NCBI GenBank assembly: GCA_009760855.2
Contig: WPIO01000077.1
Location: 1,709,001 to 1,773,000 of the forward strand
Direction of reading: 5' to 3'
Length of the DNA: 64,000 nt
Origin: Cristatella mucedo
Taxonomy: Eukaryota; Bryozoa; Phylactolaemata; Cristatellidae
Position 1 is the first letter of the stretch. The number at the start of each line of letters is the position of its first letter. The position numbers were made by a program, and so were the translations under genes. Of the stretch, positions 7,214 to 64,000 are shown one piece after another. The notes beneath the pieces were generated by a model. The model had not been told where the DNA came from, did no database searches, and was given only the letters and a program-made list of their open reading frames with translations.

Positions 7214-7316
7214 TTTTGAGATGCTCCTGAAGCGTTTGCACGCGCGTCGCGCAAGCCGCGAGCGGCTGCGTGGCGCTCGAATTATGTAGCTGATTCGCTG
7301 CTTGCGTCTCGCCCAT
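7214..7316 (-). CDS. OST-alpha-like gene B, exon 1 (N-terminus)
   Basis: An ATG at 7316 opens 34 codons plus one base, ending at a consensus donor (AAAA|GTAAGT). The peptide is hydrophilic, with a possible glycosylation site (NSS, residues 12-14) and one Cys at residue 22, as expected for the short extracellular N-terminus of OST-alpha proteins. Its end phase (one base) fits the start phase (two bases) of the exon at 3972-4126 exactly, giving EHLK followed by T-SSSVAVSM. The intron would be 3,087 bp. The call rests on the start codon, donor, phase fit and CpG-rich composition, not on strong residue similarity. Confidence 0.55.
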
Positions 7317-30290: not shown

Positions 30291-30539
30291 GGAGGCATGT
30301 AGGAAGCAAGACTCGCCAAGTAAGCCAGGCTGTATTCAGCCACGTGACAGGCCTCGGGAAGGTGAAGGACGCGGGCTCCCTCACCTCTTACAAGTTGGGT
30401 GCGATGGGGACGCCTGGCGGCCGAGCCTTGTAGCCTTCTTACGAGCTCTGGCAAGGCTGAGGTGTGCTCGCTCCGTCATTGGCTTAATCGCGGCTATACC
30501 CGTGTGTAACAGTACATTTCACTGACTACTTCGTAGTTG

Positions 30540-32510
30540 AGGATGCCGTCGCATCGAGGTGCACGCTCTCCAACGCCTGGTAGCGAGTGTCAGTCAAAAC
30601 GGAAGTCGAATCGCGCGCGGGGACCGCGCAGCAAGCCTGGCGGCGCTGCGGTCGCGCCCGTACCCACGCCTCGCCAGGTAGTCTCGCTGCTGATGAATGC
30701 TGGCCGCCGGCTGCGAAGTAAAACAGTGCCCCGGTAGCTGGGCGCGGGCGCAGGGTCGTACCCGGTCTGGCGCACTGGTACCCGCAGATTGCCGCCGGCG
30801 GCCGCCGCGACCCCCCCCCCCTGGGGGCCCTCGCGGGCGCTCGCGGGCGCTCGCGGGCGCTCGCGGGCTAGCCTCCAGCCGTCGGCGAAGCCCTAACTAG
30901 CGCCCTTTCGCAGCTCGGAGCACGCTCCGGGTGCGCGCTCGCGCGCGACCGACCTCGGCCGCCAGCGCCTCCGGTGAACGCCGCGCGGGCGCGGGCAAGC
31001 GCGCGCGCGCTCATGCGTACCTGTCTGCGCCGGCCGGCGGCAGCCTGGGATGCTAGCTTGACTGGCGGTCGCTGCGGCCTCCGCCAGGAGAAGCGACGAG
31101 CAGAAGCGGCGGCGAGGACGCCAAAGGTCAGAAAAACGCGCCCGCGGCCGACGCTCGCAGGTCACGATGCGAGCGCCCTGCGCGCTACCTAGCGTCAAGG
31201 CTCGGAGGCGTCCGGAAATGACTCGGCGAAATGCAGCCGCGACGATCTGGCAATCCAGGCAGCCGGTCAGGCAGCGGAGACGGCGGCGGTGATGGGAGTG
31301 GGTGGGGGGGGGGCGGTGTGTTGAGGTGGCTAATTTCGCAGCTGGACCCAGCTCGGGCTGCGGTTAATCCGCACCGAGCACTGAATAAATCAGCGACAGT
31401 GCAGGAGCGCATTGTTGGAGACGGGCTGTGGCGGCGGCTTCACTTGCAGAAGTAGCGCTGCCAGTTGCTGCCATCGACCGGCGACGAATATGGACGAAGC
31501 CTCGAATCGTTGGACCGCGGCTGGTGACTTGTCGATGCGGCACTAGTGCACCGGCGAATGGCCGGGCTGCAGTAGCGGAACAAGACGGCAACGGATAGCA
31601 GCCTTGCACTAAGATAGCGACTTCATAACCATAGCGCAAAGAAGTCTATTCGACAGCGGAGGAGGGTTACAGGTGTCCAGAATCAGCCGCGGCGTACAGC
31701 GACTCACGTTCAGCGACTCTCGTCTCGTACAGCGAGTCTGGTGTCGTACAGCCAGTCTCGTACGGCTCTCGCTTGGAGCGCCCGAATCGAATGTCAAGGT
31801 GCACAGCCCTACTTTAGCCGGGCCCAATGTCTAGAGCCTCGCTAAATGAATATCGCGTAACGCCGGCGCTTACGCCGCCTAACCTTAGACTACCGCCTAG
31901 ACGCTATAATTCAGGAACCGCTAATTATGAATGTATCAGATTCGTAATCTCGCCGATCTAGCACGCAGCCTTCTCAACAAGCCAGCATTTCTGTCTCCCG
32001 AGGCTTTCGGAGCGGAAAAAAAGGCGGTAAAGGAAAGTAAAGAAAGCTACGCTGAGCGAGCGAAGCCGCAGCCGCAGCCACGCATGCACATCGAGCTCGA
32101 TGACCGCAGATAATGGCCGCGGACGCGTCGCGGGCCGCCGCGCGAAGCAGCGAGGACTGCGGCTTCCGGTTCGCAGGTGCAGCGTCTCCGACGACGAGCG
32201 CCAGAGCGGCCTTGACGCCTGCTGCTGCTGCTGCTGTGGCCGAGACGCCGTTCTGCAGCAGATGTCGTCGAGTCTGCGCTGAGAGTAGCTCGGCGTGGCG
32301 CTGGCTGGACCGCTCTGCAGACAGACAAGCCTCGGTTTCGCTGGTCCCGCCGTTTCGCTGGTCCGGCTGCACATCGAGTGCTCCTCAAGCATGTTTCTCA
32401 GCCCACGGGTCGGGCGCCTCGACCTTGACGACCCAGGGATCGCAGGTTACAGTCCTGCAGCTGGCGAGCCTTCGTTGTTCACCGCGACGGAGCGCTGGCC
32501 ACTAAGGTAA
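30540..32510. promoter_or_regulatory. GC/CpG-rich island (candidate promoter region)
   Basis: A 2-kb stretch far richer in GC and CpG than its surroundings, densest at 30600-31200, with alternating CGCG tracts. In animals with methylated genomes such islands often mark promoters. Both strands stay open over several overlapping stretches because stop codons are rare in GC-rich sequence, so I do not call genes here. A plus-strand stretch at 32113-32505 has a CTG run (32218-32237) encoding alanines and a donor-like AAG|GTAATT at about 32505-32511. It could be a first exon, but no protein family is recognisable. Confidence 0.5.
30829..30870 (+). repeat. 10-bp tandem repeat in the island
   Basis: Four copies of a GC-only ten-base unit, TCGCGGGCGC. 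Confidence 0.9.
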
Positions 32511-35309: not shown

Positions 35310-36960
35310 AAGAGCAGCGGCTAAGGATCACTATATTGATCAAAGAGTGCCATCATGCCTACTTTTGATGCAAACTGGGAGGTCGGGATAAAAAATGGGC
35401 ACCTCACATGGTGTGCAAGCCATGCGTAGAAAATTCAAGACCGTAGTTTAAAGGGTAAGCAAATACAAGCCATTTGGAGTAAGAATGATTTGGAAACAGC
35501 AAACCGGCCGTGTTTTGGGTTTTTTCTGCATCACTTAAGTGTAGCTTTTCAGCAATAAGAATATAAATACAATTCAATATCCAAATATACCATCAGCGAT
35601 GCGACCTCTGCCACACAATGATGAGGTGGAGTCTCTGTTAGACATGTTGCACTTGATGATATATTGACAGAGATTTGAGTTCAACTGAAGGTGACGTTGA
35701 TGAAAACTATGCTGGTTTTGATTTTATAACCCATACAATAATGTCACAATCTGATCTTGATGATTTAGTGAGAGAAATTGACCTGCCCAAAGAGTCGGCT
35801 GAGCTCTTCGGTTCTAGATTAAAAGAGAGAAATTTTTGCGCTGGGTACTAAGTTTTCGTATTATAGGCATTGTGAAAAAGAGTTTCTATCGTAATTTTTG
35901 ACGAAGGATTCACTGATCTATTGCAACAACGTCGAAGGATTAGTTAACCGAATAGAAAAGTGCTATTATCTAAATGGTTGGAGACTCTTCATTGATTCAT
36001 CAATTGCCATTTAAGGGGATTTATGCATCACAATGGGAGCACATGTTCCTCTTTGCCGGTTGCACATTCTGTGCAATTGAAAGAGACTTAAGGAATAACT
36101 ACTTCTCATTGTCACAATGGAAGCACACGTTCCTCTTTGCCGGTTGCACATTCTGTGCAATTGAAAGAGACTTAAGGAATAAATACTTCTCAATAAAATT
36201 AAATACGATTAAAACCAGTCTAGGCATGGGGCGATTTAGAGGTCATTACCGTTCTGCGTGGACTTCAAGGTGGCTATACAACATTTCCGTGCTTTTATGT
36301 CCGCTTGATAGTTGCACTGATGGTACCAGAGCGAACACATTTTGCGCCGCGGAGAGAAATCATCCGAGAGCTTGAAAATGCTATTTTTTCCCTTGCACAT
36401 AAAGCTTAGACTATTTTAAATTATGTTAAGGCTCTGAACCAAGACGGCGATACCTTAAAGTGATTACAAGAAACTTTTCCTTTAACTTATGAGTTAGCGA
36501 TACAAGCTGGAATTTTGTTGATCCACAGATAGAGAATTGCTCAAAAACACATAGCTTGTGACAAAATTACTGGGTTCGAGTTGCAGGTATGGAATGGAAT
36601 GGATTTAAGTCTGTGGTAGAGAATGTTCTCGGCAATCACAAGTTTGCTCACTACGCGCGAAGCACTTTGCAGCAGAATGAGTGCCAAGATATATTTTATA
36701 AATTCTCACCATGACTATTTCCCATTACGTTTAGGAAAATTCATTGAGGAACTGGGTAAGAGGTTCGATCAGCAGATATGTGAAATGCAGCGTTGACATC
36801 AAGGCCGCTGGCATGATAGCATAATGGCCGATTACTGTTCGAGAAATTCAGCTGTTGAGCATAGCAGAAAGTCGACGAAGAATTAGTTTAAAAGCATTTG
36901 AATAAACGAAGGAAGACTTGTGTTTAAGTTTCGCATAACCTAGATGATATTGCTATTAAA
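35310..36960 (+). pseudogene. Decayed copy of an uncharacterised animal protein family
   Basis: Fragments in all three plus frames line up, in order, with a multi-copy protein family that I recall from aphid, Hydra and other invertebrate genomes: CHHAYF and WAPHMVCKPCVEN (about 35350-35430), FGNSKPAVFW (about 35490), a DLDDLVREIDLPKESAEL segment (35755-35808), NGWRLFIDSS (35972-36001), VLRGLQGGYTTFPCF (about 36258-36302), LNQDGDT, VENVLGNHKFAHY (about 36617-36655), LGKFIEELGKRFDQQICEM (about 36735-36790) and HQGRWHDSIMADYC (about 36797-36838). Many stops and frameshifts make it dead. No introns are apparent. The family has cysteine/histidine motifs and unknown function; a mobile-element origin is possible but not shown. 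Confidence 0.75.
36031..36198 (+). repeat. 84-bp tandem duplication within the pseudogene
   Basis: Two copies (36031-36114, 36115-36198) differing at a handful of bases. The length is a multiple of three, so in one frame it repeats 28 residues (FLFAGCTFCAIERDLRN in both). Confidence 0.95.
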
Positions 36961-37665: not shown

Positions 37666-38521
37666 CCTTCAAAGCTTCTCGGCTCCTCTACCGCGAACGC
37701 TGGCACCACTATAGTACACCGAATCTCTCCGTCGTTCGCTAGCCCCTCGCCGAGAAGCGCGTCGAGTTCACGGTTTTTGCAGTCGACTTAACTGTTTCAA
37801 AGTTGACTTTTCCATCCCTTCTCTATCTTGCGCCGCCCAACCAGCTATCCGAAGCCCCTGCTATTCAGACTTTCCTCTGCCCGACAGCTACTCCTCCGGG
37901 CGCTCAGCTGACTACCCCTGACCTCTTCAGCTTCACCCCTGACCTCAGCTTTACCTCTTATGAATTTCAAATCATCTATAGACCATGACTTCAGTTCCTT
38001 TTCTCCCAAATACCTAAACTACTTACTGACTGACTTCTTACCAACTCGGTCTTACGAAATCCCGTGACTAGACAACATTCACGCGGAAGCTCAAACCTTA
38101 CCTGCTCCCCACAATATTTGCTTCATCCGTATGAATTGTTCGCAATGGGTTGTAGCGTAACACAATTTTGCATACTGTTTTCTCTGCCAGTCATCGATCG
38201 GACCAGACCGGTCTTTCTCTCCTATGTGGATGGGAATCTGTTAAGAACCAGACCCTCACTGCATTTACCCTTGAACTTGCTATGCTACAATATCTCTTTA
38301 AATCTGGCTCGTTGATCAAGCAGGCGTTGTGGTTACAGCTCGCAGGACGCAGATCTTGGAGCTTTGGCACTAACATACGTCGACGAGTCCTCTAGCCACC
38401 CTTGATTCGAGCTGGGCCTATTAATCTGAATGCGAAGCGAATGCACGGATGCACGCGTTCGAGAGCATACGAGAGTGCCAGCGTCTGTCTGTCTGTCAAG
38501 ACGTTGATCGTGCGCTCGCTC
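37666..38521. other. Unassigned spacer
   Basis: Pyrimidine-rich at 37780-38110 on the plus strand. The open frames here lack recognisable motifs. Confidence 0.3.
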
Positions 38522-39829
38522 CTCGAATGGGTCGTGGCAGACCAGCTGAACTCGTATATCGAAACCTCACACCTTGCTAGTAAGTTCCAGTCTGGCTTTA
38601 GAGCTAATCACTCCACAGAGTCAGCATTGCTTCGGGTATACAACGACCGACTTAGGAATGCAGACATGGGTAGAGTGTCTCTGCTTGTTTTGCTTGATCT
38701 TTCGGCAGCTTTTGATACCATCGATCACAAAGTTCTTCTAGAGCGCCTCACATCTCGCCTGGGCATCACTGGCACTGCTCTGCAGTGGTTCAGGTCCTAT
38801 CTCAGTGGGAGACTCCAGAGTATTGACGTGAATGGACAAAGATCATCTGAAGTACCTCTGAAATATGGAGTACTTCAGGGCTCAGTGCTAGGTCCGGTTC
38901 TTGTCACGGTTTATACTCTGCCTCTTGCTGATGTGATTGCCAAGCACAATCTAGGCTTTTACTTCTATGCGGATGACACTCAGTTGTACCTTTGCTTTGA
39001 TCCTTCCCAGCCTTCGAGCACCTCAAATTCTCCCAACTCACTAGCTGCATGCATTGATGACATCCGCACATGGATGGCAGCAAACTTTCTAAAACTTAAC
39101 GATGATAAAACTAACTTACTAGTTATGGGCAAACCCAGTGTGATCCGGAGATTGGAAAGGCTGACTCTCAAAATTGGCTCTGCCAGCATATCTCCAGTTG
39201 AATCAGCTCGAAATCTAGGTGTCATATTCCAAAGCAACCTCTCGTTAGACGACCATATCAGCTCCACAGTCAAATCAGCCTATTTTCAGCTTCATAACAT
39301 TGCTAAACTTCGGGCTTGTTTAGATAAAGACACCACATCTAAGTTGGTCCATGCATTCGTGACATCCCGTCTCGACTCCTGCAACTCACTGCTTACTGGC
39401 CTACGAGCATGTGCGATCAGGCGATTGCAGCTGGTGCAAAACTCTGCAGCTAGGCTTGTCTGTCGTGAGCGTCGCAGTTGCCACATTACTCCACTTCTCG
39501 CCGACCTGCACTGGCTACCAGTCAAGCAACGGATTGACTTCAAGGTTTTGTCGCTCATTGTTTGGTCCCTTCATTCTATGGCTCCAGCCTATCTGTCAGA
39601 TGTACTACCCCATCAGGCCAAGCATCGTACCACCCGCTTTTCGGAATCCAACAGTCTTGAAATACCTCATACAAACCTTAAATCCTTTGGAGACCGTGCA
39701 TTTAGTTCATATGTTCCCAAAGCCTGGAACTCCGTCCCGACCTGCGTCAGAACATCCCATGACCTGACCACATTTAAAAGGAACCTAAAAACACACCTAT
39801 TTAGGACAGCATTTAGTGGGTCCTTGTGA
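38522..39829 (+). CDS. LINE-A reverse transcriptase, intact C-terminal two-thirds
   Basis: An uninterrupted frame of about 435 LINE-derived residues, from VVADQLNSYIETSHLASKF to the family's normal end TAFSGSL. FQSGFRANHSTESAL, LLDLSAAFDTIDH, FYADDTQLY (catalytic box intact) and HWLPVKQRIDFKVL are all present. The usual GVPQGSVLGP reads GVLQGSVLGP, a Pro-to-Leu change in a conserved motif, which may impair activity. The frame extends upstream to an ATG at 38402, but 38402-38521 is flanking DNA, open by chance. It lacks the endonuclease, so it cannot move on its own. Confidence 0.88.
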   Translation, partial: LEWVVADQLNSYIETSHLASKFQSGFRANHSTESALLRVYNDRLRNADMGRVSLLVLLDLSAAFDTIDHKVLLERLTSRLGITGTALQWFRSYLSGRLQSIDVNGQRSSEVPLKYGVLQGSVLGPVLVTVYTLPLADVIAKHNLGFYFYADDTQLYLCFDPSQPSSTSNSPNSLAACIDDIRTWMAANFLKLNDDKTNLLVMGKPSVIRRLERLTLKIGSASISPVESARNLGVIFQSNLSLDDHISSTVKSAYFQLHNIAKLRACLDKDTTSKLVHAFVTSRLDSCNSLLTGLRACAIRRLQLVQNSAARLVCRERRSCHITPLLADLHWLPVKQRIDFKVLSLIVWSLHSMAPAYLSDVLPHQAKHRTTRFSESNSLEIPHTNLKSFGDRAFSSYVPKAWNSVPTCVRTSHDLTTFKRNLKTHLFRTAFSGSL

Positions 39830-40072: not shown

Positions 40073-40966
40073 TGCTCGGTCACGAGCTGCGCCCTCGCCG
40101 CCGTCGACCCACAGTACACCTGTGGTAGTAGCGGCCGAACGCAGCACTCACAGAGGCCATAGCAGCGGCAGTACTGAGCGAGTTAGTACGGTTACAGGCA
40201 CAGTCTTAGCTTTTACGTATGTACCTATGGATATATCCCCTTTCTCTGCAAAACTAAGAAACCATCAATGACTCGGTATTGCATCCGAAACGAAGATTCG
40301 GCCGTATTTTATTTGGAAAGTGTACGTCTTCAACGCTTGCAAATCGGATGTGAATTTTTGGCGAAAGCACTGGAGTACGTATGCTTAGCCAAATTGAAAT
40401 TGTGGAGCACGAGTGGGTAGGCGGTGTAATTATGAAATGAGGCCGATTTTTCGAGCTATCAGCCAGAACCTTCCAAAGTGAGTCTGCTAGATTTGCTTGC
40501 AACTTTTAGCCGACCAAACAGTCAGCCGAGCCCCTTAGTAACGGGCCGGATTTAGCAAATTCGACAACGTGTTATCTAAAAAAGGCTACCAAGCGAGCGT
40601 TCATCCTCCACCATTTCGCAGCCACAATGGTGAATGTATGCACGATTTGGAACGTTCTAGCTGCCCGCACATGCATTCAGGCAGCGAATCGCATCGCTTC
40701 GTCGGGGGCGCTGGGGAGGCCCAGCGTCACTCAACGTCAGTGAGGCCACCAATCTTATCCTAGTGTGAAAATCGCATCGCGTGACTCGCACACTCGCCGT
40801 CGTAGGCGTGAGCGCTTTGAGCGGTAGCAACCAGCGGACAGCCAACTGACTGCCGCGCCTCGCCATCTATTTTTCGACAAACATCGGGCAAAAGACGGCG
40901 TCTGTTTTGCTCGCTATTTGTCAAGCAAGCAAGGGGCGCAGCCAACTGGAAGTGAATCCTGATACG
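40073..40966. other. 3' flank of gene A
   Basis: This is downstream of the gene A stop codon on the minus strand and should hold its 3' UTR. An AATAAA signal on the minus strand lies at 40308-40313, about 650 bp past the stop. 40700-40960 is CpG-rich. Confidence 0.4.
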
Positions 40967-41163
40967 CTAGCGATTTCCGCCGCTGCCGGCGACCTTGATA
41001 TCATTCAACTCGACCTCGCTGGCGGTGGCGGGCGGCTCCACGTCGTCGTGGAGCAGCCGCTTGTCAGCCGTCGTTGCGTTCGCCAGGGATGCTCGGCGGT
41101 AGACGGAGACTGCCGCCGCGCACAGTGAGCACGTGAGCATAGTAGCGGCGAAGTGGAAGTATC
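40967..41163 (-). CDS. SLC51A: OST-alpha gene A, last exon
   Basis: A 197-bp exon after acceptor CACCAG. It starts with two phase bases, matching the one-base end of the exon at 44254-44506 (together a Gly codon), and encodes 64 further residues to a TAG at 40967-40969. A membrane segment (YFHFAATMLTCSLCAAAVSV) ends in YRR, then a hydrophilic acidic tail. Vertebrate SLC51A ends the same way: last helix, YYRR, short cytoplasmic tail. The acceptor tract is modest, so the exact start is slightly uncertain. The phase fit and family layout support it. Confidence 0.75.
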
Positions 41164-41715
41164 CTGGTGATCGAGAAGCAGTTTCCTCATTGAGCACGGG
41201 CATTGCCAATGGCTTGAACGCGTGCACATCTCAAAAGCACGCCAAATGCACGGTAACAAGGCACGTCTAGAGCAGTGAGAAGCCGAAGATTTGCTTGCTG
41301 GCTTCAGTGAGCGACGAAACGTGTTCCTTCACCTAGCTTGATGATGCACCGAAACTCGAGCACTCAATTATTTTGGTACAATTGCAATATTTTATCTATA
41401 ATTGCAATATTTTTATTGCAAATTTTATCCCAAATCCTGGCATCTATTTTGGAGTAGCTTGAGTGCAGACTTGCCCGATTTGCCGGAATTCAAGCGATTA
41501 GCCCTGATTTAGTTTCCAATTCAGCTCCCTCGCTAGCATAAATCATGATCTTGATCTTAGAGCTACCTCGCCATCATCCCTCGTGACCATGATCTGCGAT
41601 CTCAAAACGACTGAAAAAAGCAATCGTGCAGGAAAAGCTAATTGGGACAAACAGAGTTTCCCTAACAAAATGTTCAGTTCGTACACTATCCTGTAATTGA
41701 TGGACACACACATGT

Positions 41716-41718
<3 letters not shown>

Positions 41719-41799
<81 letters not shown>

Positions 41800-41872
41800 A
41801 CACACGCACACACACACAAACGCACACACACGCACATACACACACACACACACGCACACACATCTACATACC
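41719..41872 (+). repeat. (CA)n microsatellite
   Basis: CA run of about 150 bp with sporadic CG or CAGA variants, preceded at 41703-41718 by CACACACATGTCCTCA. It lies in the 3,090-bp intron of gene A. Confidence 0.97.
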
Positions 41873-43284
41873 TGACACACAAACACTCATATACACGTGC
41901 ATACATACAACAAACTTGAACGGCTGCGTGACTGTACTATAAGAGAACTAAGCAGCTTTATAATCAAGACGTTTTGCAGTATACATGTTTCTTTCTTGTA
42001 GTCAACGACCCTTGGTGAATGATGCATCAACTTATCAAGTTCCGCACTGCGGAACTCACTTTCGTATTTCTCGTGCATTTCTTTCACATTTCGGCTTGCA
42101 GGTTCTGGAAAGCCTGTGTACTAACCATCGTCCTTGCTAGTCTTTGCTGTCACCTAATTTTTAGTCACATTTATGAAAGGAATTTCACTATTTTTTCCCC
42201 CGAAATCTATGCAGTTCGCTATCGAATGCGAACACTATCCGATTTGAATGAGCTCTGAACCAGAGTCTTAGCTTAGCGCTATAGTGCTCGAACATCATGC
42301 TTTAGGTCATGGAAATGAGTCATGCAGTAGACATTTATCTATTGTTAGCTGCGGGAGCGGCAGCCTGTAGTCGCTAAGTCCAAGCCAAGCGGTAGCCGGA
42401 AGGGCTCTCATGCGACTCTACCAATGAGGCTGCTGAATCAGCCAAAATGCACTTTCATTCTTGAGCAAAGTTAAGAAAACTTGCTTTATAGTTATGCTAG
42501 AGTTTTCATAATTTGCTGTATCTTCTTAAAGATGTTTCATCAGACGGCACATTTCCTTAAATATTGGAAACATGTTAGACAGAAAAATAGAGCATGAGAT
42601 GAATGTGCATAGAAAGTATCTGAAATAAATGCGGTTGCTGTCAAGTGGGAGTAGGCAGAAACTAAGCTAACGGATAGGATCAATACGGGTAGGATCAGTG
42701 TTACATGATAATGCATAGGGAAACACCTGCATCTTTGTAGGTAAAGTGCCTCGTATTTTTGAGGATTTTTACGTAAAGAGCTTCGTATTTAAGAGGCTTT
42801 TATTGGAAAGGCCATGGAAGATGTACGTGGACCAATTTCACATTAATGCTAGTTGAGATTTACGGGCTATTTCATTCTATTCTGTTTCACATAAGATTAC
42901 TAAATTGGCTCCGCAACTGTAAAAGTCATCGGATACTTACGGCTATCGGGCTTAAATATGAAATGTATGTAACCAATATTAACCACAGTCCTTAAAAAAC
43001 GACACTCATTCAAGTCTAGTGAAGCGCCGCAAGTTTGAATTATAACATGAAGATTATATTTTATTAACAGAAGTATTAGACTACTACCTCAGTGCGAATG
43101 TTTCCTATATTTCCCGAATTGAAATGACTGACTTTGGTAATTTCGTGCCCATAACAGGGATAGATTATGTTGATACACCTAGACGATTTTTACTAATACA
43201 AGCACGGCTATAAATAGTCATTACATCAAAACCATCACCAAAATATTACTGGAATAGTGTGAACTGCAATCTGCTAGGCAATGA
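41873..43284. other. Gene A intron, unassigned part
   Basis: AT-rich with no recognisable exon or repeat. The open frame at 42019-42258 (+) is antisense to the gene and has no family motif. Confidence 0.35.
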
Positions 43285-43460
43285 AATTAAAGGTTAGCTA
43301 ATCGAAAAGCCTTTTCATTTACATAACGGCAGAGGAGACTTAACGACTATCGCTTGGCTATCAGAGGACAATAAATGACTGCCTGACACGGTGGGACTCG
43401 AAACCCACGATCACGGGCATGGAGTGCGAGCGCCTTACTGTGGGGCTAGGGCTAAGAGGC
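43285..43460 (-). mobile_element. SINE-B copy 5
   Basis: Diverged minus-strand copy: CCCACAGTAAGGCGCTCGCA, box B GGGTTTCGAGTCCCAC, 3' end AAGGCTTTTCGATTAGCTAAC. Within the gene A intron. Confidence 0.7.
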
Positions 43461-44253
43461 TAGCAATGCTCAACCTTATTCCAATCTGTGAGAAAATCGA
43501 ATTACTGGGATTCCGAGCTGCAAAAATAAAATAAAACGTGGCTGCTAGCAAGGAAGGAAGTGTATTTGTAAAATAAAGTACTCCAAGCTTTCGACGCATT
43601 CATCTTCTGATTACGACTGTTTGATCTAGAAGGTGAGGCGAAATGATAATAGCTATTGATTCTGAAGCTAAGTGGAGAGTTTCGCGACGAGTTGGTGACA
43701 GAGAAAAACACATAGACCCATAGATCCGATGAAAGACACCATGAAGGCTACTGGATACAAACGCTCAAGACCTTCTTGTTGAAAGAGCAGCTACGCAGAC
43801 TCACAGTGTGCTACATGCAACGCTCTGACATAGCAGCAGCTTAGTTATCGTAGAGTTGCAGATTGGTGAAACAACCGATTTGTAGTGGCTAGATCTGCTT
43901 CGCCCAGATCAAGCTCGCGGGCCTTATCCATGAGCTTGCTTCTCAGCGAACCCCACCCTTATTGATGCGCTTGGATACGCTTGCTTCATTGGAGTGCTAG
44001 CACAATGCTTCGATGTCCAGCGAAATCGAAGTCGAGGAGCCACAGACAAATAGCTCATCCATCGAGTGAGCTCGGCGACACCTCTAATGTATCACTAATA
44101 AATAACCACTGATGCATAGTTTTGAGAAGAAGATTCAAGTAGTCACGGTATCGGCACTGATCTCCCCTGTAGTGGCGCGAGTTAGGGCGAATGACAAAAG
44201 CATGCAACGAGCAACAAACACCGAGTTCTTACGGGGAAAGTGACGTCACTCAC
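43461..44253. other. Gene A intron, near the donor
   Basis: No repeat or exon recognised. Confidence 0.35.
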
Positions 44254-44506
44254 CACTGGCGATTTGATTGGCCGGAGCGTTGATGGTACAGCGAATTATC
44301 CCGGTGGAGGTGAGGATATTGACGGTGACATTAGCTAAGCTTGTGCTCAAAATGATGAATACCAGAGTCAAGAACCGGCCAGCAATCATTGTCGCCGTCA
44401 GATGAGTCTTAGTGACACGCAGAAGTAAGGACAGGCCGTACATGGCGAATAAGAAGGACACCGTACTAAGGACGGTGACGTACAAGAAGGCGCCACGAGG
44501 GCTGAA
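44254..44506 (-). CDS. SLC51A: OST-alpha gene A, exon with two membrane segments
   Basis: A 253-bp exon with acceptor TTATTGCAG and donor AGTG|GTGAGT, 84 codons plus one base. FSPRGAFLYVTVL opens a membrane helix (FLFAMYGLSLLL), then RVTKTHLTATMIAGRFL and a second helix (TLVFIILSTSLANVTVNIL), ending STGIIRC. In OST-alpha/TMEM184 proteins the matching block reads as a helix with LFAMYxLxLFY, a short loop, a KF..LF helix and a C-terminal G.I. The order and spacing agree closely. The 97-bp intron upstream (44507-44603) is short and clean. Confidence 0.88.
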
Positions 44507-44603
44507 CTGCAATAACGAGCAAGTGGAATTAATAAGCGTATTTTCCGAGGCTCGCTTTCGTTGTACCTGGCGTAGCGCAAGAGGGCGCCATGAGGTGACC
44601 TAC

Positions 44604-44715
44604 CGACGATGGGTCGTAACTGCCGTTGACCCACAAAATGGCGGAGAGGCCCATAAGCACGGGTCGCAGGAGCAGGCACTGTAATATGAGTATCAAAATG
44701 CCGCCGATGAACCCA
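44604..44715 (-). CDS. SLC51A: OST-alpha gene A, exon with central membrane segment
   Basis: A 112-bp exon: one base completing an Arg codon from the exon at 45486-45644, then 37 codons ending phase 0 at TCG|GTAGGT. It encodes GFIGGILILILQCLLLRPVL and a helix, then NGSYDPSS. The family has LGPFQY..K or LQ.TVVRP followed by a helix and GIYD at this place, and the IYDP of vertebrate SLC51A is echoed by SYDP. Phase matches on both sides are exact, which argues strongly for a functional gene at least in this part. Confidence 0.87.
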
Positions 44716-44824
44716 CTGAAACGGTCCGAAGTAGCAGCCAGCTTCACTCCTGCTTATAAAATAAACCTGCAAGGTCGCTCAAAAGCATGCCGCTTAGTCA
44801 ATTCTACCTATCAGCTTTAAATAG

Positions 44825-45005
44825 AAAAATACTAGCTGATTTAACAGCCTCTTCTGCATGGCGACAGAAGAGCCTTGCTGGCTATCACCACCACTTGCAG
44901 TGGAAATAAAGGATTGCCCACTGAAGGATTTGAACCCATGACGTTGGGACCGAGGTCTTAAAAAGCAACCGTGTTAGCTAGTGTGCACCACGGCTCACCA
45001 AATCA
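44825..45005 (-). mobile_element. SINE-B copy 6 in gene A intron
   Basis: Minus-strand copy: GCCGTGGTGCACACTAGCTA, CACGGTTGC, box B-like GGGTTCAAATCCTTC, AGCAAGGCTCTTCTGTCGCC, CTGTTAAATCAGCTAGTATT. Fills part of the 770-bp intron 44716-45485, in the same orientation as the gene. Confidence 0.85.
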
Positions 45006-45485
45006 AACGCAGTGTAATGCGCTCTTTTCTAGTTTTTGAAAGCACTTCGGTTCTACTTTGTTTAACAATTAGTTTTGCCACCAGTTTTGTAAAATATAGC
45101 ATTCCAATATGATTGGTTAAGTATGTTGCAGGAAGGCAAGTCATGTTTGTTCGATTTATTACAATTGGTTAGCATAGCAAGAAGTGCGAGCTGTTTGGTG
45201 AGACGTGCTGCGAAAAAAAGCAAAATAGGATTGTAATTTTGTCTACTGCATTCCGCCACTGGTAAGGTCTGCTCGCCTTTAGGGTCTTTACCACGGCTGT
45301 CATCGCAGATAAGCGTGGTGCCGCATTGTGAAGTTTGTAGGAGTAAGCAACAAGAGGTTCAACCAGTCATAGCTAAATATGATGTTCATGTTTCGCACAG
45401 AGTGCCTAGCACGTGATCACGAACTACATCGATCGTAGACGTAGAAAAAATGTATGGCCGCAATGTTCCATTTGTTGCAACTTAC

Positions 45486-45644
45486 CGAGACACTTCCTTT
45501 GTGGGCAGGCACACGCAGCAGCAGCAGCATGGCGGCGACCTGAGCGAGACCTTGGTGAATGCAGCCTTCCTTAAGAGCTCCTCTTTGCCGCCGAGGCCAG
45601 CGACCATCGAGCAGGCCATCTTCCACAGCACCACTGCCAGATAT
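45486..45644 (-). CDS. SLC51A: OST-alpha gene A, exon with GGKE and Cys5 motif
   Basis: A 159-bp exon (acceptor CCGTCCACAG, donor TCTCG|GTAAGT). It encodes a membrane segment (YLAVVLWKMACSMVAG), LGGKEELLRK, then SLRSPPCCCCCVCL. A GGKE block followed by a run of five cysteines is the signature of the vertebrate bile-acid and steroid transporter subunit SLC51A; TMEM184 relatives have GGE but no such run. The cysteines are usually thought to be lipid-modified at the cytoplasmic face. Phases (start: one base completing a codon; end: two bases) fit the exon at 44604-44715. The exon encoding the preceding loop and second membrane segment was not located. Confidence 0.92.
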
Positions 45645-46864
45645 CTGTGGACGGCGAGAACCAGGATGCCTTTATTTTACCGAAAGTACGGCTAACAACG
45701 CCACCATCCCATCGTGTAGCTGTCTCAAAGAAACACCTTCACCTCATAGTGGGCGTAAACGAAGCCAAATGATCGGGAAAAGCAAGAGAGTAGTAGGTCA
45801 TGCACATGGAGAATGGCCCGGCAGCTAACACACGCGGGTCAATAGTGCTAACGATTGATGACGCGAATTCCTGCAATAGTCGCTACATGTGTTCCAAAAG
45901 AACGCTATTGAAATGCAGCCAAGATGCCCCTTCACCTTGACCGGGTCTGCTATCTAGTGATAGACCGTGACAATGTCAAGTTTTGGCTTCCCAATTTTAA
46001 GATCAGCCCTCTCAAGAATATTTCCTTTAAGCCTATGGATAATTACTCTGAAAATATTTCATTTAAGCCTATGGATAACTACTTTGAACTTGGGTAAGTG
46101 TCATGCACAATTTCATTTTGAGGCCACCGAAAGTAATTTTCATGAATACTACAGCGATACATTTTTTGTGCAACCGCTCTGTCAGCATAGTATCGCTGCG
46201 GTAGTGACGTTAAGAACCTATGTTAGCTGCCGCAGCCAAATGTGTAGAGCACACTTTCGTCAAGGAAAATGCCAAGTTTCGGGCTATAGGTGAGCGAATA
46301 TTTGTAAGATGCGTACGAAATATTTGAAGCGGTTCAAACACGAACGCGCGAATAACCACGTCGAAGGAAAACACACTAGCTACGATTGTTACCCTTGGTC
46401 ACTAGATTGGTACCTCTAAAAAACCTGTAATTTGCAAGTGAATACTCGTGCCTTTTTAGTTAGCGTCTTTGCTTAGCTTTCCTCGATTCAGAACTATCTG
46501 GTTCAGGTCCTGGCGCCTAAAATTGTTCAGAGAGCCAGAGTATGGCACTTGCGGAAAAACCTTTTATCAACCTCTCCTGCAGCGGATTAATCCTCAAAAT
46601 GTTTTTTGAGTAGTAGTGCTTCGGTCTATAACTTGACGCGATGTAGGAGGCCCTTGATAATTTCACATCTATATTCCACTTCGATCATATTGCGGTGTGG
46701 GGAGATCATCGACAGTTATAGTGAAGTGAGCTCGTGCTGTTCGAATTTGCTTTAGGACGCAGTTCCGCCAGGCATCCTGGCTCGTGTAAATGATTGATAC
46801 GGATTGCTCACACAAACCAGGACGTGGAGAGCTTACTTGGAAAGCTGCCCGACTACTCAGTACA
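45645..46864. other. Gene A long intron, 3' part
   Basis: I searched the minus strand for the missing exon (phase 0 to phase 2, about 80 bp, with a Pro-Arg after a helix) and found no convincing candidate. A 36-bp tandem duplication containing TTTAAGCCTATGGATAA lies at 46018-46089. Confidence 0.35.
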
Positions 46865-47040
46865 TAAAAAAAGTAATATTAGCTGATTTAACAGCTTCAT
46901 TTGAATAGTGACAGAAGAGCCTTGACGGCTATCACTACCGCCGGCTGTTGGCAATAAAGGATGGCCCGCTGCAGGCTTCAAACCCACGACCTCGGTCATG
47001 AAGAGCGATTACCTTACCTTCTTGGCTATCACGGCCCTAA
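46865..47040 (-). mobile_element. SINE-B copy 7
   Basis: Minus-strand copy: GCCGTGATAGCCAAGAAGGT, GGTAATCGC, CGACCGAGG..CGTGGGTTTGAAGCCTGC, AAGGCTCTTCTGTCACTATT, TGTTAAATCAGCTAATATTA. Confidence 0.83.
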
Positions 47041-47870
47041 AAATTTCAAAGCTAGAAAATATGCCAGAGTTAGCATGCTCGACTAATACGCTGCTACCAC
47101 TGCCTTGCAGCAGTCAGAGCTAGGAAAGATGTCAGCTCTAGGACGCTGGGCTCCGGTGCCGCTACAGCAAAAGCTCTTGCCTCAAGTAACAATCTTGCAG
47201 ACGCAAGCCGCGGTCGCCGGTGCTTGATGAAAACAAGTGACACCCTTAGAAAACGAAAGAGAAGCTCAGTTAACAGACGTTAATACATATCGGCGGAAGA
47301 TCCAGTTAGGCTTTCACACTACTTGCATCTGGCCATAAATACGACAGAATTGCTTGGTTCTGCACTCGAACTCACGACCTGGGTAAGTGCGAGAACCATA
47401 CAGACAGGCTGAAACCCAGTGTCGAAAAGAGAAGCTGCTTAAACTCCCTCATTTATTCATCGGAACAGACGGCTTAGCCGATTTGCACCTACCCGGTTTG
47501 CAGAGGGCAAAAGGAATTGCCAAACAGGTGAACCATTTTAGGTCACAGTTACCTCATTGTCTGCTTATGATTGAATTTCTTCTTTCGCGTTTTTTACGCC
47601 ACAGCTCATTCTTCGTCGTTTTTTCTAGCGCTGCCGCTATTTGAATTCACTTTAGCATGGCTCTCTTGTTCATCCTTAGGGCGCTGAACTGACTCGCCAG
47701 TTCAAATCCCGTTGTGAAGTCTGAAAAAGCTCGTTTTACTAGACTACTCTGTGGGCACCTCTGTGGGCCGGTCATTGCCTTCCCGTGGTTCCGCGCCCAC
47801 GCCCACGGTCCATCCCAGAGCGTGACGCGTTCCTTGCTGCGCAATTTACGTCTTGCCTGTGCGTCGGCGA
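47041..47870. other. Gene A long intron, middle part
   Basis: No exon identified. AGTTCAAATCCCGT at about 47700-47713 looks like an isolated box B, probably a SINE relic. Confidence 0.35.
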
Positions 47871-50315
47871 GTAATAATAATAATAATAATATTGCACTTG
47901 ATAAAGCGCCCTCAGAGAACTTAATCTCTTTCTAGGCGCTTTACATTTGCTGCAAAGTGATACGCAATAGAATAGTAAGTAAAATCATGCATGAAAAACA
48001 AACAAAATGAATAACATGGTTAGGGGTTACATGCACTGGGTCAGCATGCAAATGTGGTTAGTGGCAGCATGAACAGTGTCAGCACGCATAAGCACATCGA
48101 GGACGAATCACAAGGACCCACTAAATGCTGTCCTAAATAGGTATGTTTTTAAGTTTCTTTTAAATGTGGTCAGGTCAGGGGATGTTCTGATGCAGGTCGG
48201 GAGGAAGTTCCAGGCTGTGGGAGCATACGAGCTAAATGCATGGTCTCCAAAGGATTTAAGGTTTGTACGAGGTATTTCTAGACTGTTGGATTCCGAAAAG
48301 CGAGTGGTACGATGCTTTGCCTGATGGGGTAGTATATCTGAAAGGTAGGCTGGAGCCATAGATTGAAGAGACCTAAAAGTGAGCGACAAAACCTTGAAGT
48401 CAATCCGTTGCTTGACTGGTAGCCAGTGCAGGTCGGCGAGAAGTGGAGTAATGTGGCAACTGCGACGCTCACGACAGACAAGTCTAGCTGCAGAGTTTTG
48501 CACCAGCTGCAATCGCCTGATCGCACATGCTGGTAGGCCTGTAAGCAGTGAGTTGCAGAAGTCGAGACGAGATGTCACGAATGCATGGACCAACTTAGAT
48601 GTGGTATCCTTATCTAAACAAGCCCTAATTTTAGCAATGTTATGAAGCTGAAAATAGGCTGATTTGACTGTGGAGCTGATGTGGTCGTCTAACGAGAGGT
48701 CGCTTTGGAATATGACACCTAGATTTCGAGCTGATGCAACTGGAGATATGCTGGCAGAGCCAATTTTGAAAGTCAGCCTTTCCAATTTCTGAATAACACT
48801 AGGTTTGCCCATAACTAGTAAGTTAGTTTTATCATCGTTTAGTTTTAGAAAATTTGCTGCCATCCATGATCGGATGTCATCAATGCATGCAGCAAGTGAG
48901 TTGAGAGAATTTGAGGTGCTCGAAGGCTGGGAGGGATCAAAGCAAAGGTACAACTGAGTGTCATCCGCATAGAAGTGAAAGCCTAGATTGTGCTTGGCAA
49001 TCACATCAGCGAGAGGGAGAGTATAAACGGTGAAAAGGACCGGACCTAGCACAGAGCCCTGAGGTACTCCATATTTTAGAGGTACTTCAGATGATCTTTG
49101 TCCATTCACGTCAACACTCTGGAGTTTCCCACTGAGATAGGACCTGAACCACTGCAGAGCAGTGCCAGTGATGCCCAGGCGAGATGAGAGGCGCTCTAGA
49201 AGTACTTTGTGATCGATGGTATCAAAAGCTGCCGAAAGATCGAGCAAAACAAGAAGAGACACTCTACCCATGTCTGCATTCCTAAGTAGGTCGTTGTATA
49301 CCCAAAGCAATGCTGACTCTGTGGAGTGATTAGCTCTAAAGCCAGACTGGAACTTACTAGCAAGGTGTGAGGTTTCGATATACGAGTTCAGCTGGTCTGC
49401 CACGACCCGTTGCAGTGTCTTTGATAGGAATGGTAGAAGGGAGACTGGGCGGTAGTTGCTTAAGTTCTCTTGGTCTAGTGTAGCTTTCTTGAGAAGTGGC
49501 CTGACTACAGCTTTTTTGAAAGGTGCTGGGACCTGACCTGAGACTAATGACATATTAATGATGTTGGTTATGCATGGCAGCAGCAGATCAATGCAACGTA
49601 GGAGCAGGACAGTGGGAATAGGGTCCAGTGGACTTGTTGTCTTCTTTGATTGAGATACGAGCTTTAGGACTACATCACTAGTGACCTGTTTAAATGCAGA
49701 CATTGAGGCGCAGCCAGGAACCGAGGAACAGCATTCTAGTGGGAAGGTTGTCATCGCAGGGATGGATTCCCTGATTTTGTCTATCTTCTGCACAAAGAAT
49801 CGAGAGAAGCGATCGGCTAGATCATCACAAGGATCATCAGGTAAGGAGCTAACCTGGGAACGGTTGAGGAGATGGTTTATTGTCGACACCAGCATTTTTG
49901 GATTGTGCATCTGTGATTCAACAATGTTTCTATAGAAGCTAGACCTAGCCTTTGCTAGGATCGATTGGTACGACCTACAGTAGTCTTCATATGCCTGTCG
50001 ATGGACAGTTAGTCCGGATCTTTTGTATGCCTTTTCAAGCTTTCGTTTTGTAGACTTGGCTAGTTTAATGTCTGTGGTAAACCATAGGCCGTCTGGGCGG
50101 GGGCGCACAGTGCGCTTTGTCAAAGGTGCAAACTCGTCGAGCGTGTCAGCTAGTGTCGTGTTGTAGCAATCTACCAGTGATAACAGAGCGGAGGGAGGAC
50201 TGAGCAGCAAAGGTGAAGCAGATATGCTCGCACGGACAGCATCGATGTCAAGGGTCTTGAGGTTTCGCGATTCACAGGTTATTTTAGAGGAGAATGTGGG
50301 CACACACTGTAGATT
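47871..50315 (-). mobile_element. LINE-A copy 7, youngest-looking
   Basis: ATT-repeat tail and hairpin at 47871-47945, full 3' UTR, then one uninterrupted coding frame to the 5' truncation point near 50315. It lies inside the long intron of gene A, in the same orientation. It lacks the endonuclease. The absence of any stop or frameshift over about 2.2 kb marks it as a recent insertion. Confidence 0.93.
48108..50315 (-). CDS. LINE-A reverse transcriptase, intact, endonuclease missing
   Basis: About 735 residues: linker (SITACESRNLKTLD-type start), KLAKSTKRKLEKAYKRSGL, LSNYRPVSLLPFLSKTLQ, FQSGFRANHSTESALL, LLDLSAAFDTIDH (about 49215), GVPQGSVLGP (about 49060), FYADDTQLY (about 48970), then HWLPVKQRIDFKVL and the end TAFSGSL. 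All catalytic motifs are intact. On the same frame 50316-50702 adds 129 residues of flanking, non-LINE sequence up to an ATG; that extension is probably chance, although a chimeric protein cannot be excluded. The enzyme could supply reverse transcriptase in trans if expressed. Confidence 0.88.
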   Translation of the reverse strand, partial: NLQCVPTFSSKITCESRNLKTLDIDAVRASISASPLLLSPPSALLSLVDCYNTTLADTLDEFAPLTKRTVRPRPDGLWFTTDIKLAKSTKRKLEKAYKRSGLTVHRQAYEDYCRSYQSILAKARSSFYRNIVESQMHNPKMLVSTINHLLNRSQVSSLPDDPCDDLADRFSRFFVQKIDKIRESIPAMTTFPLECCSSVPGCASMSAFKQVTSDVVLKLVSQSKKTTSPLDPIPTVLLLRCIDLLLPCITNIINMSLVSGQVPAPFKKAVVRPLLKKATLDQENLSNYRPVSLLPFLSKTLQRVVADQLNSYIETSHLASKFQSGFRANHSTESALLWVYNDLLRNADMGRVSLLVLLDLSAAFDTIDHKVLLERLSSRLGITGTALQWFRSYLSGKLQSVDVNGQRSSEVPLKYGVPQGSVLGPVLFTVYTLPLADVIAKHNLGFHFYADDTQLYLCFDPSQPSSTSNSLNSLAACIDDIRSWMAANFLKLNDDKTNLLVMGKPSVIQKLERLTFKIGSASISPVASARNLGVIFQSDLSLDDHISSTVKSAYFQLHNIAKIRACLDKDTTSKLVHAFVTSRLDFCNSLLTGLPACAIRRLQLVQNSAARLVCRERRSCHITPLLADLHWLPVKQRIDFKVLSLTFRSLQSMAPAYLSDILPHQAKHRTTRFSESNSLEIPRTNLKSFGDHAFSSYAPTAWNFLPTCIRTSPDLTTFKRNLKTYLFRTAFSGSL

Positions 50316-51084
50316 GATACGCACGCTCTGCACTCCCTTTCTATCCTTCTCTTTTATCTTCGCGCTCTGGAGCTGCGTCCACGACGGCTTCCACTGCATT
50401 CGTTTGCACCCTCGCTCGATCGCGTTTGCCTGCATGCACACATTACAGCCTTCATCGTCATCACCGCAGCTCGCTTCAAGGGGGCTTCGTTCTTCGTGGC
50501 GCCGCCCAGCGTGCTCATGAGCCCCTACACATTTGCTTGTGCCGCCGCCCGCCTCCCTGGGTATCAACGAGGCCCTTACTAGTAAATTAAATTGCCGACT
50601 ATGAAAAGCCGAATGTCCAAGTATAAAAAAGTCCAGTATAGTGCTGATCCGGAAGAAAAAATACTGTAGTTGATTGATTTTTGCTCTTGCCTTTGTCCAC
50701 ATCTAAGATTTACTAGAAGCAGCAGACTATTTTAGGATGCTGCTCTCTGAAGACGTCTCAACAGACAAACTAAAAAAAGACGAACTCCCATCTTTTCTTT
50801 TGTAAAGCAGGCATGCAAGGATACGCAATGGACCGGGAAAGCAGGGCTCGCCGTAGAAATAGTGGATTAGCCAAACGCTATTAGACACCTATAGTGCATG
50901 CGTAGCCGGACCTCGGCTATGTGCAGAGGCTCATGGTAGATGGGTTTTTATAATTCAAGTTCATTGTACAATATCTATTTATACATTTACTGTCAATTGA
51001 AAAACATGGAGCTATGCTGCTTATTCTATACTGCAAGTAAATATTGGTGTCCGTTCAACTTGACAGTGCTTCGTAATGTTTAGC
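50316..51084. other. Gene A long intron, LINE-A 5' flank
   Basis: CpG-containing at 50320-50580, where the LINE frame stays open by chance. No repeat recognised. Confidence 0.35.
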
Positions 51085-51208
51085 TGTACACTTAATCTTT
51101 ATTCAGGCACTTCACATATACCACGGGGCTCAAACCCACGAGGTCGGCCAGATCTTGATCGGGTCGGACACTAACCTTAACCACTTGGCTAAATCAGCTC
51201 GTCAAACC
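51085..51208 (-). mobile_element. SINE-A copy, diverged
   Basis: Minus strand: GAGCTGATTTAGCCAAGTGG, box B GTGGGTTTGAGCCCCG, AAGTGCCTGAATAAAGATTAAG. The second hairpin arm is lost at the 3' end. Confidence 0.7.
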
Positions 51209-53284
51209 AAGAGAATGTGGGTCCACCTGCTGCAACCGGAAGTCATGGCACGCCGACCATTCTGATAATTAAGGACCCACGGCAAATATGAACGTTACTT
51301 CTCGTGGCGAATTAAGCACCTATGGACGGCATACTTGTGAATGACTTTCAAGGACGGGTGTGTTGGAGGCCAACAGCCGGCGTAAAATGTGCAGCTCTGC
51401 TTCTATACCGCTTGCACTGTGCTTTATACTTATTGCATTCGGTAACTCTCTAATGCAACAAGTTTACTTCGTCATTATAAAAAATACGACTTCTGGGACA
51501 CAAGAAATAGTCGGGTACTTGTCAAGGTGCGCTTTCTGTCACTATTATTTTCAGAAAGCTCATTCTAATTTTTTACGGCAGCCGTTACGCAAGTCGAAGA
51601 ATAATTTCTCGCTGCACTAGCACGTGGCTACTCCGAAAATTTTTGAATCGCCTGGCTGCTACCCTATGGATCGCACGACCTGCCATGTGCCCAGAGAGAT
51701 AATACACGGAGGCAAATTATGCAGGACAGTTTTAAAGTGTACATTTCACTCAACCATGCCTTTCATGTCTTCAGGATCTGGCTTAACCTCATCCAAGCAC
51801 AATATGATACAATGATGAGCTTGGGTGAGTGTCATGGAGGAATACCACACGAATGTGTGCATGGCTTTTTTCTTAGAGCCATCGCTCGGCTATATGATAG
51901 TATGCATAATACAATAGTAGATATATAGTAGTACAGATATTGCCAGCTCGGCCATCTCCGGCTTCATGCCGCCCGAAAGACTGGGAGCAAACCGGCCACG
52001 CCAACTCTTGCCTAGCGCTAGTACCCTAGACAAATCGAACATCTAACCGATTAGGAATACCTCCGAAGTGTTCGATACAAGAAATCTGTCTAATCGTAGT
52101 GAATTAGGCGAAGCCCCAGCCAGCTCTTACGCTACTTGGTGCGACTCTCTACGTGACGGGAAACGAGCAAACCCAAAGGCTGCCCATTTCCGAGCCATTT
52201 TCGAAAGCCTGGCACCAGTCACTTACGTGGCATCAATAGCTTGGCACAAGACGGACGATGCAGGAAGTAGGATCCCCAAAAGGGACGAGAATGAGAGCAC
52301 CTGAAAAATTTGACCGCAATGCGAACATGTCAAGATCCTGTTAGGTGGGTGTGCCGGTTCAGCTTCGAGCTTTGCAAGCCGAGTAACGAGTTGCAAAAGG
52401 CAATGGATTCAATAAATAATAAAGAAATACAATTCCCCTGACTGATACTAACTCAAGAGCTCGTCTGTTATTGCAGCGATCACAATGGCGCCTTTCGGTG
52501 TCTTGACGGTTACTCGGTCTTTTTCTGATGGCCTTGCATTGTTCTCTCCTCCTACGAGTCTACACACAATCTCCCATACCTTGCATGCTCACACCACACT
52601 GATGCGTACCCACAAGCAAATATGCATATTAAAACATAGACAAACGAACTCTGTTACCTACCTCTCTCCTCTCTCTTTCTCTCTCTCTCTCTCTATCGTT
52701 CCTAGACAAAGCCTAGCCCTAGTCCTAAGTCAGTCTTTAATGCTTCAAAACTATTTCTCTCTTTTTACATCATTTGTATATCTTCCATAGCTTCCATTTT
52801 CCATCATCTCCTTTGGCTCATCAGTTCTTCACTCAGTTACTCAGTCCTTGATCAGTCTCCTTTACTCTCCACCCACTCACTGCTCTCTCAACTCTCTCGT
52901 CTCTCTAAACCCTCTCTCGCTCTCTCTCCCTCCCATTCTCTCTGTCTCTTCCCCTCCGTCTCTCTCACTCACTTTTTTCACCAGCCCCTCCGTCCCCCCC
53001 TTTTTCGGTGCATCTCTACAGAGCTGCTTTCTGGGGGCAGCACTGTTTCTTTCAAGATCAATAGAACTGTTCAGGCGGTTCAAGCCGATAATGCCCCGCC
53101 GAGGCTTTGCATTTCTCTTGAACCAGTCACATAGCTCGGCTGTTTCCTTGCAGCTATTACAATTTTAGCATCTCAGCCCTCCAAACAGTTTTTGACGCTG
53201 TAAATTATTCCATTCATTGCTGCCCCCACAGATACTCGATTTCATTCTTCAAATTGGCTCGATTACCAGATGTACTGTCTTACC
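51209..53284. other. Gene A long intron, 5' part
   Basis: No exon confirmed. 52650-53010 is strongly pyrimidine-rich on the plus strand, with a CTCTCT run at about 52667-52696, so the minus-strand transcript would be purine-rich there. Confidence 0.35.
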
Positions 53285-53438
53285 GGATATACGCTGATGA
53301 TCATCATGTGGTACCCATTTTTAAGCCAAAGCTTAGCATTTCCTCTGATAAGACAACACCCGTAAATAAACAAGGCCCAAGTCAGCATCGTGCTGACACC
53401 AGCGACGCCCACCATTGAAAGCGTCGATGTTGAAGAGG
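53285..53438 (-). pseudogene. OST-alpha-like first-membrane exon with one base missing (gene A?)
   Basis: Homologue of the exon at 3972-4126, bounded by acceptor TTGTAG and donor CCG|GTAAAG at the same positions. It is 154 bp rather than 155: a base is missing in the GGAATGC context where gene B has a codon more, so the frame breaks after WALFIYGCCLIRG. Restoring the length would give NAKLWLKNGYHMMIISVYP, and 31 of 52 residues would equal gene B. It lies upstream of the gene A exons in the right order and strand. Either gene A's start is dead, or this is a homopolymer read error, or another exon replaces it. Confidence 0.7.
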
Positions 53439-55805
53439 CTACAATACAGACGAAAGTGGTGTCAGAGCACTGGCAAATTACTTGCTCTTTGCCTGGCTGA
53501 TTTGGGATTACTTTAGAAACAATACCGAAAACGCTATTGGTGAAAATAAAGGCAATCGTAATAAAATGCGAAGCTGCAGGTTAACGCGGTAATGGAGAAG
53601 GACATTTTCTGCTACTGGTAACTCACAGGCCATTCGATCGTCTTTACTTAAACTCCTCCGAGCCCCACATCATTTGGTCTGCTAAAATCTAACATCTCGC
53701 ACTGATATTAGGGCCGACTCACACCACAGTGGCAAACGATACTGGAGTCGTCTCTACCGGCGTTGGCCGGCATGAGCAGCAGATGTGGTCTGTGGCAAAA
53801 GCAGACTGGATAGTCGGAGTCAGGCAACCAATATCAATTACAAAAACGAACACTCACTCACTCGCGTAGAGTACTAGAATCAGGCTCGAGTGCGTAAGTG
53901 GAAACTTACGGGTAAGCTGGGCCGTTGCCCTGTATTTGAGTGTAGTGGAATGCTTGGCTGGCTAACTTGAGTCGGTGCAACACTGCGCCAGATCAAAGGT
54001 TGCACAATCGCTCACAGCTGGAGGCGCACAACTTTGCACTCGGTTTCTTGACTTCGCTGCCTTCAGCCGTTCTAGACTTTCGAAATAATGCACTGAACTG
54101 CAACTCACAGTTGATTTTCATTGCGGCTACACTCCTCAACTATCTCCTTCCTTGTCGTTTTCTCATCTCAGAAATCGCTCTATACTCAAATATGGGCGCG
54201 ATCGCTCATCATTTGTACAAAGTGCCATGACTGGGCGCATGGCTTCATTTTCAATATCTGCGCGAGACTGTGTGTCTGTCAAACCTGACTGATGAAATAT
54301 AACCAAGAACTAACAGATCAGTTGTAGCTCAGTGCAATCACAGCTCAATTCTAAAATCGAGGTCCCGCGAAAAATTTCTTAGAGCCATCACCATCCTGCT
54401 CCAAGCGATAATCAGTTTCGTGCTGCCGATTTTACTAGTTCAGTCAACTAATCATCTCATTAGTCTACTGAACTCAAGGACATTCAAACATCGTAGGTTA
54501 TTTCTCTGTCCGGTATTTAAGAAATGGCTGGATGCGGCGGGTGTTTTAACCCCCCCCCACTAACTAGGATACTTAACGGATTTACTTTTGTTGCTTATGC
54601 ACTAGTAATAAACGTACAGGTTTGAAGCTTTCAAATTTTCAAATTCAATAGGCTAAGCGAGTGCTATGGTAGAGAGGTTTCCTTAGACTACTTGCCGCTG
54701 AAGCTTTTCATTGTGAGCAATTCACAGACAATAGTGTTAATCTCAAGCGACGGTAACTGGAAAACTTGAAAGAGATGGCCTATTGGAAGGTCAGGCGATA
54801 TAGCAAAGAATTAGCAGTGGAGGATGGGAAATAATAAGCACCAGAATTCATACCAGGCTCACACTTAAAATTTCGAATATAAATTATGAAGACGCTAACG
54901 TCTTGCAATTCTGTTCTGTTGATACCCGTCAGAGGCTACCTATTCATGGCAGTATGCTTTTTATTTGTGCTCTCTTACTTTATGTGTACATGCAACCATA
55001 AAAAGATATATACATATATTCAACAGATACTGAGTGCGAAAACGTATAGGCATGAGCAAACGCTGACAATTTCTGTCCCCTGTGCCCGACAGTGGCCCCG
55101 ACCTCGTGTCAAACTCAAGCCGAGGCGCTGAAGCAGCGTTGCAGGGAGGTCAACTCCTACTTCCATTATCGGTTATCTGTCTAACTCAATTGATACTCAA
55201 AACTGAACCATATTATTTACCTTAGCATACACGGAATGCTTGCTCTACAAGTAGGCTATGTACAGTATCCCGTGCACTCCACACCTCTTTTCTGCAATAC
55301 AGTACCACTGCTACTATCTTCGGGTCCGTTGGAGCTGCCAAGCGGTAAAGTAATCCAATCCATAAAATACTTGACGATTTCACGCGTTACATTTAATGGA
55401 TCGCTTGGAGAAAGAAATTACTTTGTAAAAACTTCAGTAGCAGAGGCTTAAAGAGAGCACTGCTTTTCCAAAAGCGTGAGGTACCCATATCTTTAGATAC
55501 CACGCCTTATGCACGTGACGTCCTCGCAATGCTTGCCTAACGATTCTAGTTAGGTCCCTCAAGCACTCAAAATTTCATCGATGCAAAGTTCAAATTTCAA
55601 ATTTCCGTAACAAAAACTAGTCGGCAGTAGTCGTGTTCAGCATGCAGTAACTTACTGTAAAGAAATTCCTCTATGGTTTGCAGGCGCATTGCACACACTA
55701 GGGACGAGTTCTTTTCAGTCATATTAGGTGCTTGAGGCGTTACTTGATACTGGCCTGTCATGGCGCCCGTGACTGAAAAAACCAAAATAAATCGATAAAA
55801 AATGT
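53439..55805. other. Upstream of gene A, unassigned
   Basis: The first 40 bases resemble the flank of the gene B exon. A minus-strand ATG at about 53770, followed by 16 codons and a GT near 53722, could be a short first exon of suitable phase, but nothing confirms it. The remainder has no recognised repeat or gene; a C run lies at about 54551-54559. Confidence 0.3.

Positions 55806-61795: not shown

Positions 61796-64000
<2,205 letters not shown>

Follow-up and report, generated by a model that had tools for sequence, protein, structure and literature searches.

Structure of the main OST-alpha gene

On the minus strand of the 64-kb window (the whole stretch of DNA that was analysed) we identified what is very probably a complete and apparently functional animal gene, whose seven predicted coding exons would specify a 351-residue multi-pass protein of the OST-alpha (SLC51A) family. 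The gene spans positions 40967–55761, which replaces the span of 40967–45644 given in the preliminary description. All of its borders are AG/GT, all six junctions are in phase (intron phases 1, 0, 2, 2, 0 and 1), and the coding total of 351 sense codons plus the stop codon runs without a frameshift or an internal stop. We infer that the exons are spliced together in vivo and that the gene is expressed.

The preliminary description had drawn four exons of this gene, at 45486–45644, 44604–44715, 44254–44506 and 40967–41163. Their coordinates, minus-strand orientation and order were all found to be correct, with AG at four of four acceptors, GT at three of three donors and a TAG at the end of the fourth exon. 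The compatibility of their phases was borne out as well, the joined 721 bases being open in one of the three frames, and both GGKE and the five consecutive cysteines after it are indeed encoded in the first exon of the set (45486–45644). The search that had been proposed with the joined peptide (239 residues) gave a match to the Pfam family PF03619 with E = 2.1e-27 and 96.6 bits (cut-off 24.9), covering profile positions 70–263 of 267, in agreement with the OST-alpha identity that had been claimed. What did not stand was the extent of the gene: the four exons hold, but they are exons 4–7 of seven and carry the C-terminal two thirds of the domain. Since the match of the four-exon peptide started at position 70, leaving the 5′ part absent, exons were sought upstream of exon 4. 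Three further coding exons (55656–55761, 53284–53438 and 52227–52300), overlooked in the earlier reading together with a second gene copy, supply the start codon and the missing N-terminal part of the protein.

Exon 1 (106 nt) begins with the ATG at 55761, leaves in phase 1 through a GTAAGT donor and encodes an N-terminus with NMT and NSS sequons. Exon 2 (155 nt) and exon 3 (74 nt), both with AG/GT borders and matching phases, encode the first and the second predicted transmembrane helix, respectively. They are followed by exon 4 (159 nt), exon 5 (112 nt) and exon 6 (253 nt), and then by exon 7 (197 nt), which is entered in phase 1 after an AG acceptor and encodes the last hydrophobic stretch and a hydrophilic tail before the in-frame TAG at 40967–40969. 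About 650 bases past the stop codon lies an AATAAA (40308–40313, minus strand), a consensus match that may represent a polyadenylation signal; it is the sole AATAAA or ATTAAA on the minus strand from the stop codon to position 38001. Exon 1 may be preceded by another, non-coding exon, as suggested by an AG ending 11 bases ahead of the ATG. The same arrangement of AG, one base and then CACGGGC is found shortly before the ATG in both OST-alpha copies (55762–55774 and 7317–7332, minus strand), which suggests that the two share the acceptor of a non-coding 5′ exon.

Profile and PDB evidence for family membership

The full 351-residue protein matched the Pfam profile Solute_trans_a (PF03619, Organic solute transporter Ostalpha) with E = 1.5e-36 and 126.5 bits (cut-off 24.9) over profile positions 2–263 of 267. 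When the later exons were scanned singly, exon 6 gave E = 2.6e-12 and 47.1 bits, exon 5 remained under the cut-off (14.1 bits, E = 0.031), and exons 4 and 7 had no match in Pfam; it is because exon 6 alone passes the PF03619 cut-off in this way that the gene is overlooked by single reading frames. Exons 2 and 3, taken without the rest, matched PF03619 positions 2–67 with E = 5.8e-05 and 23.0 bits, slightly below the cut-off, and exon 7 added 2.6 bits to the score of the full protein (126.5 versus 123.9) or 2.8 bits to that of the four-exon peptide (96.6 versus 93.8). As judged from these scores, the family signal is carried by exons 2–6, with weaker support for predicted exon 7, the assignment of which rests on its splice signal, phase, hydrophobic stretch and stop. 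Predicted exon 1, lying outside the PF03619 domain, rests on its donor, its phase and its likeness to exon 1 of the second copy. A weak second Pfam match, to 7TM_GPCR_Str (E = 0.0034, 17.2 bits, cut-off 22.4), overlapped residues 11–94.

The best match in the PDB was OST-alpha, with E = 1.3e-19 for the seven-exon protein and E = 7.8e-17 for the four-exon peptide. Among the eight PDB sequences listed, three were OST-alpha (E from 1.3e-19 to 1.5e-19) and the other five had E of at least 0.028. These OST-alpha chains (9ljg and relatives) we take to be human; the PDB listing gives no species. The alignment, in which 63 of 233 residues (27%) are identical, spans four of the exon junctions, being free of gaps at E3/E4, E4/E5 and E5/E6 and having an 8-residue gap adjoining E2/E3, while E1/E2 and E6/E7 lie outside it. 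GGKE and PCCCCC align with the PDB OST-alpha position for position. By itself the run of cysteines is weak evidence, since a TGC repeat codes for it and a run of six cysteine codons occurs elsewhere in the window (32220–32237, plus strand). The identity of the four exons is settled instead by the PF03619 match together with the gap-free PDB alignment over E4/E5 and E5/E6.

A second OST-alpha copy on the same strand

A tblastn search of the 64-kb window with the main protein detected a second, related gene. Its exon 2 (3972–4126, minus strand, 155 nt) matched with E = 4.9e-13 and 62% identity over 45 aa, and its exon 1 (7214–7316, minus strand), which has an ATG, a phase 1 exit and a GTAAGT donor, gave a weak match (E = 0.35). 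Some 34 kb past the end of the main gene the copy starts, likewise on the minus strand and with its exons in the right order; the splice phases of both exons equal those of the main gene, as does the length of exon 2. The two first exons aligned with a local score of 51, which was reached by none of 5000 shuffles (maximum 42). When the first two exons and their introns were compared between the copies by blastn, three matches were obtained, one of them at the 3′ end of exon 2 (82.5%, 63 bases); the other two, outside the exons, were taken for repeats.

Substitutions between the copies gave pS = 0.597 and pN = 0.300 over the 86 codons of exons 1 and 2. In exon 2 (51 codons) pS was 0.657 and pN 0.237, the differences by codon position being 18, 6 and 27, and none of 2000 bootstraps, made on this exon only, gave pN equal to or above pS. 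The dS value, 1.57, is near saturation. The synonymous excess in exon 2 therefore points to coding constraint since the copies parted, in a test that cannot tell which of the two is constrained.

No convincing exons 3–7 of the second copy were detected in positions 1–40900 with residues 87–351 of the main protein as the query (best E 0.77), a search that a diverged short exon could escape, given how weak the match of exon 1 had been (E = 0.35). By themselves, the two exons of the copy gave no Pfam match at E of 0.001 or below, only exon 2 falling in the domain. Since LINE open frames for a reverse transcriptase (751–2574) and an endonuclease (2607–3680) lie on the minus strand directly past exon 2, the rest of the second copy is probably beyond the left edge of the window.

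The stretch at 62244–62331 was considered as an alternative first exon of the main gene, having an ATG, an open frame, a phase 1 exit and a GTAAGT donor, and was rejected. Its score against exon 1 of the main gene was reached by 1409 of 5000 shuffles, and that against exon 1 of the second copy by 1304 of 5000. Stretches with this combination of features occur 25 times in the window: three in the two real first exons, two in this candidate and 20 in neither.

Alternative readings of the locus

The family profile by itself does not separate OST-alpha from its relatives: according to the sections of PMC9333335 on these proteins, human TMEM184A–C and SLC51A all have a Solute_trans_a domain, so that the exons could form a TMEM184-type gene, from a related branch, and not OST-alpha proper. 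We regard this as very improbable. The main protein is 27% identical (63/233) to the PDB OST-alpha, whereas the same sections put human TMEM184 proteins and SLC51A at 12.3–13.6%, TMEM184 being judged here by this published range only. Moreover, the five consecutive cysteines, described in the relevant part of PMC5942847 as highly conserved in vertebrate OST-alpha, align in place in the main protein. That the gene is an inactivated OST-alpha copy, a pseudogene, would be consistent with a locus rich in repeats and with the LINE open frame within intron 3, but its 351 codons without a stop or frameshift, its canonical splice borders and the synonymous excess in exon 2 relative to the second copy make this reading very unlikely too.

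Phase-compatible chains of open stretches with GT-AG borders are easy to find, the minus strand of 40901–45700 having 334 GT and 280 AG dinucleotides, and a run of six cysteine codons arose elsewhere in the same window. A chance chain of this kind is nevertheless already refuted by the PF03619 matches of the four-exon and seven-exon products, and both the absence of gaps at three junctions of the PDB alignment and a second copy with the same layout of exons 1 and 2 argue against it; the probability that we would leave to it is negligible. An OST-alpha gene, complete and apparently functional, is thus the reading that we retain.

Sequence surroundings in the window

Within the main gene, intron 3 (about 6.6 kb) contains a LINE-type reverse transcriptase open frame (48108–50702, minus strand, 864 aa; PF00078 RVT_1, E = 5e-32), which is on the same strand as the gene and outside its product. 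LINE retroelement open frames, with endonuclease and reverse transcriptase domains, also lie on the minus strand at 751–3680. Fragments of LINE-like proteins were recognized by eye at 8946–9722 and 38402–39829 on the plus strand and at 20533–21804, 56096–57097 and 57677–58096 on the minus strand.

A GC-rich island at 30501–32500 reaches 55–71% GC in its four 500-base bins, whereas 15 of the 16 4-kb bins of the window are at 44–48%. The island contains overlapping open frames on both strands and is perhaps a promoter, possibly that of the second OST-alpha gene. Simple repeats were also observed: an 84-base unit present twice in tandem (36028–36192, 96% match) within a 133-codon open frame (35974–36375), adjoining long (AT)n and (AG)n arrays at 61798–61950, and a (CA)n array (41719–41862) in intron 6 of the main gene. 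No tRNA was found in the 64-kb window, and no Rfam family reached its gathering score there.

Predicted topology and proposed function

Seven transmembrane helices are expected in the OST-alpha family. The Kyte–Doolittle hydropathy of the main protein in 19-residue windows has nine peaks above 1.1, one of which is the run of cysteines, so that eight others remain and not exactly the seven expected. Past residue 307 this profile has no hydropathy peak that could correspond to a fused beta helix.

In vertebrates, a heteromer with OST-beta is required for the surface localisation and function of OST-alpha, and the transport of bile acids or steroid conjugates is a feature of OST-alpha (SLC51A). 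By analogy with the vertebrate protein, the main protein would be a plasma-membrane carrier through which steroid-like or other amphipathic organic solutes may pass down their gradient, usually as efflux. Its likely role, as suggested by the family to which it belongs, is to let amphipathic organic solutes cross the plasma membrane by facilitated transport. It is a speculative idea, and one that we consider rather unlikely, that an invertebrate lineage has two tandem OST-alpha genes, both coding-constrained, which function with no conventional OST-beta subunit, for instance as partners of one another.

Comparison with known systems

The main gene is a further member of a known family, recovered through ordinary gene anatomy. 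The value of the result is mainly one of annotation, in that phase and homology were enough to recover a gene lying in short exons amid LINE copies. From the tandem copy a little may be learned about the working of OST-alpha in invertebrates.

The Clonorchis sinensis protein CsOST is likewise an invertebrate protein with a Solute_trans_a domain, as described in the part of PMC5942847 devoted to it. CsOST has 480 aa, three conserved cysteines and a proposed OST-beta-like C-terminal part, whereas in the main protein five cysteines follow one another directly and hydropathy peaks are absent past residue 307. By the account given in that part of PMC5942847, which proposes the beta-like part to be fused to the fluke protein, OST-beta from invertebrates had not been reported as of 2018. 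TMEM184A, TMEM184B and TMEM184C belong to the same Pfam family and are predicted to have seven helices; the sections of PMC9333335 that treat them report the low identity to SLC51A cited above. The identity of the main protein to OST-alpha/SLC51A (PDB 9ljg) is 27% only; the likeness extends through Solute_trans_a nearly from end to end, the GGKE and PCCCCC positions match, and the two proteins are of similar length, with 351 aa in the main protein and 340 in chain 9ljg_A.
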